From: Halanaerobium saccharolyticum
GTDB taxonomy: Bacteria; Bacillota; Halanaerobiia; Halanaerobiales; Halanaerobiaceae
Length of the DNA stretch: 33,161 nt
Assembly: GCF_003053565.1 (NCBI RefSeq)
Contig: NZ_QAXS01000035.1
Location: forward strand, 1-33,161
Direction: 5' to 3'
Made by a program: the position numbers and the translations under genes. The notes beneath the pieces were generated by a model. The model did not search any database. It worked only from the letters and a program-made list of their open reading frames with translations, and was not told the DNA's origin. Shown in pieces: positions 1 through 705 of the stretch (positions are counted from its first letter, which is position 1; each line of letters opens with the position of its first letter).

Positions 1-25
1 TGGTTTCTGTGATATCTTTGTCCAT
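1..25 (-). CDS. 5' end of an unidentified leftward gene (partial)
   Basis: Read on the minus strand, an ATG at 25-23 is followed by open codons to the window edge (M D K D I T E T). A strong ribosome binding site, AAGGAG, lies at 39-34, eight bases before the ATG. Only eight codons are visible, so no product can be named. The start is convincing because of the well-spaced ribosome site. That site sits inside a large hairpin, described separately. Confidence 0.55.
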
Positions 26-33
26 AGTATATG

Positions 34-87
34 CTCCTTATTTTTTGGGATTTGGACAAAGACTATCCTAATCCCAATTATAAGGAG
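34..87 (-). promoter_or_regulatory. 5'-leader hairpin that would sequester the ribosome site of the leftmost gene
   Basis: CTCCTTAT (34-41) is the exact reverse complement of ATAAGGAG (80-87). Inside it, TTGGGATT (45-52) is the exact reverse complement of AATCCCAA (70-77), and TCC/GGA can extend the stem further. In the leftward transcript the AAGGAG ribosome site forms the 3' side of the outer stem, paired with an upstream CTCCTT. This is the architecture of an RNA thermometer or a translational on/off switch. The pairing is seen directly; the regulatory role is inferred. Confidence 0.55.
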
Positions 88-127
88 TTTTTCTAATTTA
101 AGCAAGTATTTTCGCTAAAAATCGAAC

Positions 128-154
128 TTGACTTTTCTTAAATATTTTTATGCA
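128..154 (+). promoter_or_regulatory. possible promoter for the ferritin-like gene
   Basis: TTGACT at 128-133 is a good -35 element. The best -10 candidate, TATGCA at 149-154, is weak and has a 15-base spacer. This is a low-confidence call made because the next gene has no other visible promoter. Confidence 0.25.
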
Positions 155-213
155 ATGCTAGTGAATTTTTTTATTTTATAAAAAAAGAGATAAAATTTTA
201 TTTGGAGGGATCA

Positions 214-705
214 ATGATGAAGGAAAGATTTAATGCATTAGAAGTTATGGAAATGGCAAAAGATATTGAAAAAAGAGGTAAGAAATTTTATTTAAAACAT
301 GCAGAGGCAACAGAAAATAGAGATTTGAAGGAATTATTTAAAAAACTGGCTCAGGATGAGCAGGATCACTATGAAAAATTTGTTGCTTTAACTGAAGAGC
401 TGCGTGAAGATAGTGATGAAGCAGATTACCTTTACGAAGAAGATGTGAGTGCCTATTTTAATTATTTAGTTGAGTACTCCGTTTTTCCTAAAGATGACAG
501 TGAAGAGTCAATTGAAGCTCTAAATGATGTGGAAAAGGCTTTAAAACTTGCCATTCAGGCTGAAAAAGATTCAATTTTATTTTACCGTGAAATGTGTGAG
601 TTCAATGAAGGTAAAACAATTGAGGCAGTTAATAAGTTGATCGAGGAAGAAAAAGATCACTTAAGAGCCTTAGGTAAATACATTAAAGAATATGGCGAAA
701 AATAA
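214..705 (+). CDS. Rubrerythrin-like ferritin-fold diiron protein
   Basis: This is a 163-residue, wholly helical, acidic protein of the ferritin-like/rubrerythrin superfamily. Two helix pairs carry the expected metal ligands. The first has a Glu in DIEKRGKKFY and an E..H pair in DEQDHYEKF. The second has a Glu in AEKDSILFYREM and an E..H pair in EEEKDHL. There is no C-terminal rubredoxin domain, so it is the short, 'erythrin' type. The family uses a diiron site in peroxide or oxygen detoxification or iron handling in anaerobes. The TTG at 202 overlaps the GGAGG ribosome site (204-208), so the start is placed at ATG 214 (or 217). The next gene overlaps its 3' end by 14 bases, suggesting co-transcription. 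The exact substrate is unknown. Confidence 0.85.
   Translation: MMKERFNALEVMEMAKDIEKRGKKFYLKHAEATENRDLKELFKKLAQDEQDHYEKFVALTEELREDSDEADYLYEEDVSAYFNYLVEYSVFPKDDSEESIEALNDVEKALKLAIQAEKDSILFYREMCEFNEGKTIEAVNKLIEEEKDHLRALGKYIKEYGEK

Follow-up and report, generated by a model that had tools for sequence, protein, structure and literature searches.

A leftward gene begins at the left end of the 33,161-nt stretch of Halanaerobium saccharolyticum DNA analyzed here (the window, throughout), and its leader can fold into a long hairpin that takes in the ribosome site. Which gene lies behind this hairpin, and in which of its messages would the hairpin form? The earlier note had called for the gene on the left to be identified; its Pfam and NCBIfam matches make it an IS4-family transposase. 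Window positions 1-163, on the minus strand, belong to an IS4-family insertion sequence, of which they are the promoter-side end, truncated by the contig end. A complete copy in a related genome (L010 104-1663, the same place as L038, Halanaerobium saccharolyticum) is 1560 bp long and carries one gene of 417 amino acids (L010 272-1525), on the strand that is read leftward in the window. The transposase scores 222.6 bits against the NCBIfam model NF033592 (transpos_IS4_1), above the curated cut-off of 115, and also matches the Pfam families DDE_Tnp_1 (74.3 bits) and DUF4372. The terminal inverted repeats are imperfect, with 58-68 nt of both ends matching at 81% when inverted (L010 and L012), and direct repeats of 9 bp surround three copies (L010, L017, and L012). 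By transposase score, inverted repeats, and target duplication, the element belongs to the IS4-family insertion sequences represented by NF033592.

A search of the window's own genome (G000) located 10 more near-identical copies of this element end, or 11 with the window, and a covariance model returned the identical 11 places. All 11 sit at contig ends (C24, both ends of C33, C35, C42, C44, C46, C64, C65, C68, and C72), the pattern expected of a repeat that breaks an assembly, and the element is a main cause of assembly breaks in this genome, in which no full-length match to the transposase was found. Remnants of the element also occur: one is shortened with the hairpin mostly retained (L013 1320-1661), another has a decayed anti-Shine-Dalgarno (L014 1501-1655), and two hold parts of the leader only (L015 1501-1574 and L024 1501-1601).

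The hairpin and the predicted promoter inside it

The features of the element end, all on the minus strand, are as follows.

1-163: end of the insertion sequence, the terminal repeat finishing ...GCAATGCTAGTG at 163
1-25: first codons of the transposase (MDKDITET...), with the gene start at 25
11-23: element A′ (GGACAAAGATATC), from the start codon's final G through codon 5, pairing with A with one bulge
34-41: Shine-Dalgarno ATAAGGAG, 3′ arm of lock stem P1, from sequence and covariation
45-52: 3′ arm of stem P2, AATCCCAA, from sequence and the A2 alignment
54-68: loop element A, GGATAGTCTTTGTCC, which by prediction forms the 5′ end of native mRNA and has complements in the first codons and in a 3′UTR site
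70-77: 5′ arm of P2, TTGGGATT, between the −10 box and the predicted start and so predicted to be absent from the native mRNA
77-82: TATAAT, a −10-like box overlapping the anti-Shine-Dalgarno arm and P2, with the A at 79-78 unpaired in the hairpin
80-87: anti-Shine-Dalgarno CTCCTTAT, 5′ arm of P1, from sequence and covariation
100-105: TTGCTT, a weak −35 candidate 17 nt upstream of TATAAT, absent from the consensus-scan list

Along the mRNA, CTCCTTAT (87-80) is followed by AA, TTGGGATT (77-70), the loop (69-53), AATCCCAA (52-45), AAA, ATAAGGAG (41-34), 8 nt, and the ATG (25-23). Both 8-bp stems are perfect, as had been claimed, and the tiny loop between them is an internal loop of 2 × 3 nt; the paired outer arms start 46 nt apart, rather than about 55 as first given. 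The segment 88-24 folds at −26.0 kcal/mol (z −6.8); shuffled versions average −9.3 (sd 2.5), and none of 200 folds as well. In the predicted fold of read-through RNA the Shine-Dalgarno is unpaired with a probability near 0, leaving the ribosome site closed, and covariation (see next section) is in line with this predicted burial. In the predicted fold of an RNA beginning at 69, positions 41-38 are open at 0.94-1.0, while positions 37-35 are mostly paired in a weak 3-bp stem.

The TATAAT at 82-77 begins at the end of the anti-Shine-Dalgarno arm, runs through both unpaired A, and reaches the first base of P2. Its position predicts a start at about window 70-68; a start 7-8 nt on falls at 70-69, and 69 is used here as the approximate predicted start. 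A native start near 69 would leave both 5′ arms out of native RNA and retain them in RNA started in the flank, and with the −10 box in the 5′ arm the lock should therefore form only when transcription begins beyond the element. The earlier note had held that its reading would be refuted by a start downstream of position 70, with the anti-ribosome-site strand then missing from the mRNA; such a start is what the promoter position predicts for native transcripts, so that the hairpin is assigned to a different class of message. Exact TATAAT is present in 65 of 75 distinct leaders from relatives and a one-base variant in the other 10, a count that is descriptive because a pattern of five −10-like hexamers was used to pick these leaders. 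The two unpaired A of TATAAT are conserved in the alignment of Halanaerobiales and Clostridia. Counting against the lock, one leader (L152) retains TATAAT and has lost its anti-Shine-Dalgarno, a loss also seen in the remnant L014. Just before the hairpin lies an A-tract of four bases that hardly vary, 7-10 nt ahead of TATAAT. No −35 enrichment was detected at a distance of 16-18 nt in 46 dissimilar leaders (2.67 matches versus 2.63 in shuffles, with 205 of 500 shuffles as high), and given this the promoter may be weak or may use other contacts.

The missing −35 and the conserved A-tract would also suit a promoter further upstream, in which case the native transcript too would carry the lock, as a constitutive damper perhaps opened by the 3′UTR site or by an antisense RNA. 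There is a partial parallel in ISPpu9, where a 5′UTR structure is reported to hide the transposase ribosome site, as here, and the antisense sRNA Asr9 to open the leader hairpin (PMC8450116). Against this reading, all 75 leaders kept, though selected with the −10 pattern, have TATAAT or its one-base variant, and the two A of the box that have no pairing role are conserved nonetheless in the A2 alignment. We consider such a damper unlikely. The hairpin is probably a translational lock in the leader of an IS4-family transposase mRNA, and most likely keeps the transposase from being made off messages that start in neighboring DNA.

Covariation of the hairpin in relatives

Relatives came from genome_contigs and from four groups of genomes: 6 of 38 in the window's order (at E 1e-30), 47 of 397 in the order to which a Peribacillus genome belongs, 26 of 398 in the phylum that includes a Peptococcaceae genome, and 19 of 296 in the order containing a Paenibacillus genome. 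Leaders were taken only where the match begins at or near the transposase start, so the sample represents copies that are not truncated. It comprised 81 leaders, of which one was too short for the duplex test (leaving 80); removal by hand of L152, for its lost anti-Shine-Dalgarno, and L195, whose start region is missing, together with four identical copies, left the 75 distinct leaders. Alignment A2 uses 24 of these (Halanaerobiales and Clostridia) and alignment A3 uses 41 (Bacillales), the remaining 10 being near-copies. For Paenibacillaceae, 20 loci were reduced to 16 by setting aside L246 (no start), L242 (a near-copy), L267 (frame runs on), and L258 (start uncertain).

In the alignment-free duplex test, 68 of the 80 leaders show pairing at z < −2 between the stretch preceding the start codon and a segment further upstream. 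Of the lock-helix cells in A2, 85.3% are paired, and 7 of the helix's 15 pairs show two-sided changes, a count that is lowered by MAFFT shifting the Shine-Dalgarno arm by one column in the Halanaerobium rows; the whole structure is 90.3% paired, compared with 37-50% when slid by 1-3 columns. In A3, P1 is 88.7% paired, with two-sided changes in 4 of 8 pairs, P2 is 73.4% paired, and the whole structure is 82.9% paired compared with 33-54% when slid. The number of A3 pairs with two-sided change is not above that in shuffles (82 of 500 as high), and the A3 covariation score is reached by none of 500. Thus the covarying base pairs that the earlier note had proposed seeking in relatives are seen in both A2 and A3.

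With fixed windows, pairing of the anti-Shine-Dalgarno with the Shine-Dalgarno falls at z < −3 in 60 of 64 elements and in 2 of 78 other ORFs, a control built with a stricter motif filter in which both low-z ORFs (L149, and L150 at 149) look like transposases. A first control of 43 ORFs, 30% of which had z < −3 for the same pairing, was set aside on the suspicion that it held transposase ORFs. Exchanging lock arms between elements weakened the pairing in each of three clades (own/swapped −17.9/−13.6, −15.5/−14.7, and −14.0/−9.9; 0 of 1000 permutations each, these and the permutations below being uncorrected for relatedness). For clostridial elements, reversed mock strands gave an own-minus-swapped difference of −0.97 (0 of 1000), compared with −4.29 for the real arms. 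The lock is conserved among transposases of about 30-50% identity, and a search with the covariance model detects the leader in 21 of 149 genomes of the phylum; in distant Bacteroidetes and proteobacterial relatives, inspected by eye only, the leader is not apparent. Collectively, by these sequence comparisons, the lock covaries in Halanaerobiales, Clostridia, and Bacillales, and it recurs in Paenibacillaceae.

The two low-z control ORFs differ in kind. L149 is a broken member of this IS4-type element family. L150 holds, in a frame from 149 on the plus strand, a different gene resembling a transposase (MHKHTTLPNLMQKIV...) with its own strong lock, GAGCACCTTT ... AGGAGGTGCTC; given this case, ribosome-site locks may occur in other insertion sequence families of Bacillota.

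Partners of the loop in the first codons and the 3′UTR

The loop that the hairpin encloses has partners of its own. In A2, 96.5% of the cells of the 12-bp helix between A and A′ are paired, and 5 of its 12 pairs show two-sided changes. The same pairing is present in Paenibacillaceae-type elements with unrelated loops, as in L104 (GTTATCCAT with ATGGATAAC) and L058 (ATGTTACCCA with TGGGTAACAT); in L250 it is not recovered in the fixed window (z 0.6). Own A-A′ strands pair better than swapped ones in clostridial elements (−18.3 versus −14.8; 0 of 1000), Bacillales (−12.1 versus −11.4; 7 of 1000), and Paenibacillaceae (−14.0 versus −11.6; 5 of 1000). With fixed windows, z < −3 is found in 34 of 64 elements and in none of the 78 controls, a weaker signal than that of the lock. 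The segment from 69 to 1, as in the predicted native RNA, folds at −16.0 (z −3.6).

A second site complementary to A, termed A″, lies shortly past the stop codon. The window ends before A″, which is known from complete copies in relatives, such as L010, where it reads GTGGATAAAGACTATCTC on the mRNA (L010 245-228). A-A″ has a median z of −4.1 over 48 elements whose reading frame is long, and with fixed windows z < −3 is found in 36 of 64 elements versus 2 of 78 controls. Across a 10-nt core, 9 or 10 of the 10 positions pair in 20 of 21 clostridial and Halanaerobium elements, the exception being L167; this count skips three of the 24, L011 because it is cut off and L119 and L041 because of stops. 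Changes in A are matched in A″ at several positions, as in L179 (AGAAGCCCTT with AAGGGCTTCT) and L171 (TTCTT with AAGAA). The pairing is also strong in Paenibacillaceae, as in L250 (AGAAGGTTACC with GGTAACCTTCT), L266, and L252, where A″ begins 11-34 nt after the stop. Own A-A″ strands again outpair swapped ones in the three clades (−24.2/−20.4, −19.6/−17.8, and −21.2/−16.0; 0 of 1000 each), and reversed mock strands give no difference in clostridial and Paenibacillaceae elements, with a slight difference in Bacillales (32 and 9 of 1000). In L010, A-A″ at −24.1 outweighs A-A′ at −18.1, and this pairing of 5′ leader with 3′UTR spans about 1.2 kb. As judged by these comparisons, three clades whose sequences have diverged keep both the A-A′ and the A-A″ pairing.

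A role for A″ as an arm of an intrinsic terminator was also considered. A run of at least four T follows a local partner in 6 of 39 cases, and such an arm is thus not general; the local pairing has a median of −11.8 kcal/mol, compared with −22.7 kcal/mol for A-A″, and L010 has no terminator-like site. In the 3′UTRs of Paenibacillaceae (e.g., L241-L256), CTTTTTT is often seen by eye some tens of nucleotides after A″ and may be a terminator dependent on A″ pairing.

Repeats of this kind could instead be DNA sites, for transposase binding or as an operator, with the RNA pairing incidental. Such a role would fit their position close to both ends of the element, the resemblance among A, A′, and A″ in Halanaerobium and Clostridia, and the fairly constant distance, within a clade, of A″ from the right end. 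The details of the pairings speak otherwise. P1 holds the ribosome site and varies by compensating changes, and the A-A′ helix includes G-U pairs and keeps a single-base bulge throughout. At a single site in the 10-nt A:A″ core, A has T in 20 of 21 elements, A″ has A in 13 and G in 7, and the lone C in A faces G. In addition, Paenibacillaceae elements with TTG starts (L252, L254, L257, and L266) use largely different parts of the loop for the codons and for the 3′UTR. The bulge, the G-U pairs, the one-sided A/G wobble, and the split use of the loop favor an RNA over a DNA role, short of proof, and we regard a purely DNA function as improbable.

A proposed gate on translation and its counterparts

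Of the functions first suggested, the ribosome-site lock is upheld by covariation and conservation; control of the native mRNA by an RNA thermometer or a ligand riboswitch, which would likewise sequester the ribosome site in covarying stems, is very improbable, since positions 40-35 of read-through RNA, most of the Shine-Dalgarno, are predicted to be unpaired at 0.00 at 37 °C and at no more than 0.01 and 0.06 at 50 and 70 °C, so that melting in the physiological range is not predicted, the loop is not aptamer-like and changes in sequence together with its pairing partners, Rfam 15 has no match in window 1-400, a −10-like box occupies the 5′ arm, and the gene is a transposase. Among L010, L168, L043, L241, and L177, the only Rfam match is a c-di-GMP-I-GGC riboswitch (L168 3297-3381, plus strand; 80.9 bits) that is unrelated to the element.

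We propose that the lock separates messages by origin. The element's own promoter would give a transcript from about 69 that lacks P1 and P2, its ribosome site largely free, whereas a transcript entering from flanking DNA would form the whole hairpin (−26 kcal/mol), burying the ribosome site and blocking transposase synthesis. An insertion beside an active promoter would then not be self-activating. In the native mRNA, A-A′ would keep the start codon region closed, and A-A″, by competing with A-A′, could free that region once the 3′ end exists. The three pairings thus suggest a multi-state mRNA switch, in which we infer the identity of the "on" state. On this basis we tentatively suggest, as a possibility that is less likely than not, that in a class of Bacillota insertion sequences translation requires an mRNA both correctly started and complete: read-through RNA would be locked, native RNA would be kept shut by pairing of its 5′ end with the start codon region, and capture of the 5′ end by the 3′UTR, once the far end of the element is transcribed, would open the gene.

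The avoidance of neighboring promoters by insertion sequences is known from a few enterobacterial elements. In IS10/Tn10 and IS50/Tn5, protection from external (impinging) transcription arises because only outside transcripts hold both arms of an inverted repeat and bury the ribosome site. The element described here resembles them in its DDE transposase, its inverted repeat near the promoter end, and a lock that is predicted only in outside transcripts; by this analogy its function would follow the same logic and hence be no new kind. It differs from IS10 and IS50 in that its −10-like box forms part of a lock arm and its codons and 3′UTR hold conserved partners of the loop. Messages of the hok/sok type also fold back 5′ to 3′, with an alternative local pairing, as here, but these encode a toxin, are antisense-controlled, and have no read-through lock.

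IS10 is reported also to use the antisense RNA-OUT and Hfq (PMC5006887), whereas no antisense RNA was found for the window's element. The sole opposite-strand promoter-like site, TGGACA-17-AATTAT at window 53-81 (plus strand; 9 of 12 matches, about the chance expectation), reads outward to the flanking gene; an RNA from it would start near 88 and run outward with no overlap with native RNA from 69, and an RNA-OUT-type antisense was rejected. In icaR of Staphylococcus aureus, the 3′UTR pairs with the Shine-Dalgarno region and represses (PMC3868564). The likeness lies in a 3′UTR that pairs with the 5′ leader of its own mRNA; unlike in icaR, the 3′UTR here pairs with a loop that otherwise binds the start codon region, and could relieve repression. 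By the same analogy, A″ could instead promote decay or repression. Full-text searches of a collection that covers few subscription papers, among them most of the older work on insertion sequences, listed no paper with a title or opening of the abstract on this leader or on 5′-3′ pairing within a transposase mRNA.

In Halanaerobium, Clostridia, Bacillales, and Paenibacillaceae, the logic of protection from external transcription can thus be read from sequence, and a −10-like box is part of the lock itself. Both further pairings of the loop, above all that of a 5′ leader with its 3′UTR over about 1.2 kb, would make an unusual mRNA architecture. If translation does depend on both a correct start and a complete message, the element would be testing its own mRNA for its origin and for possession of both ends.
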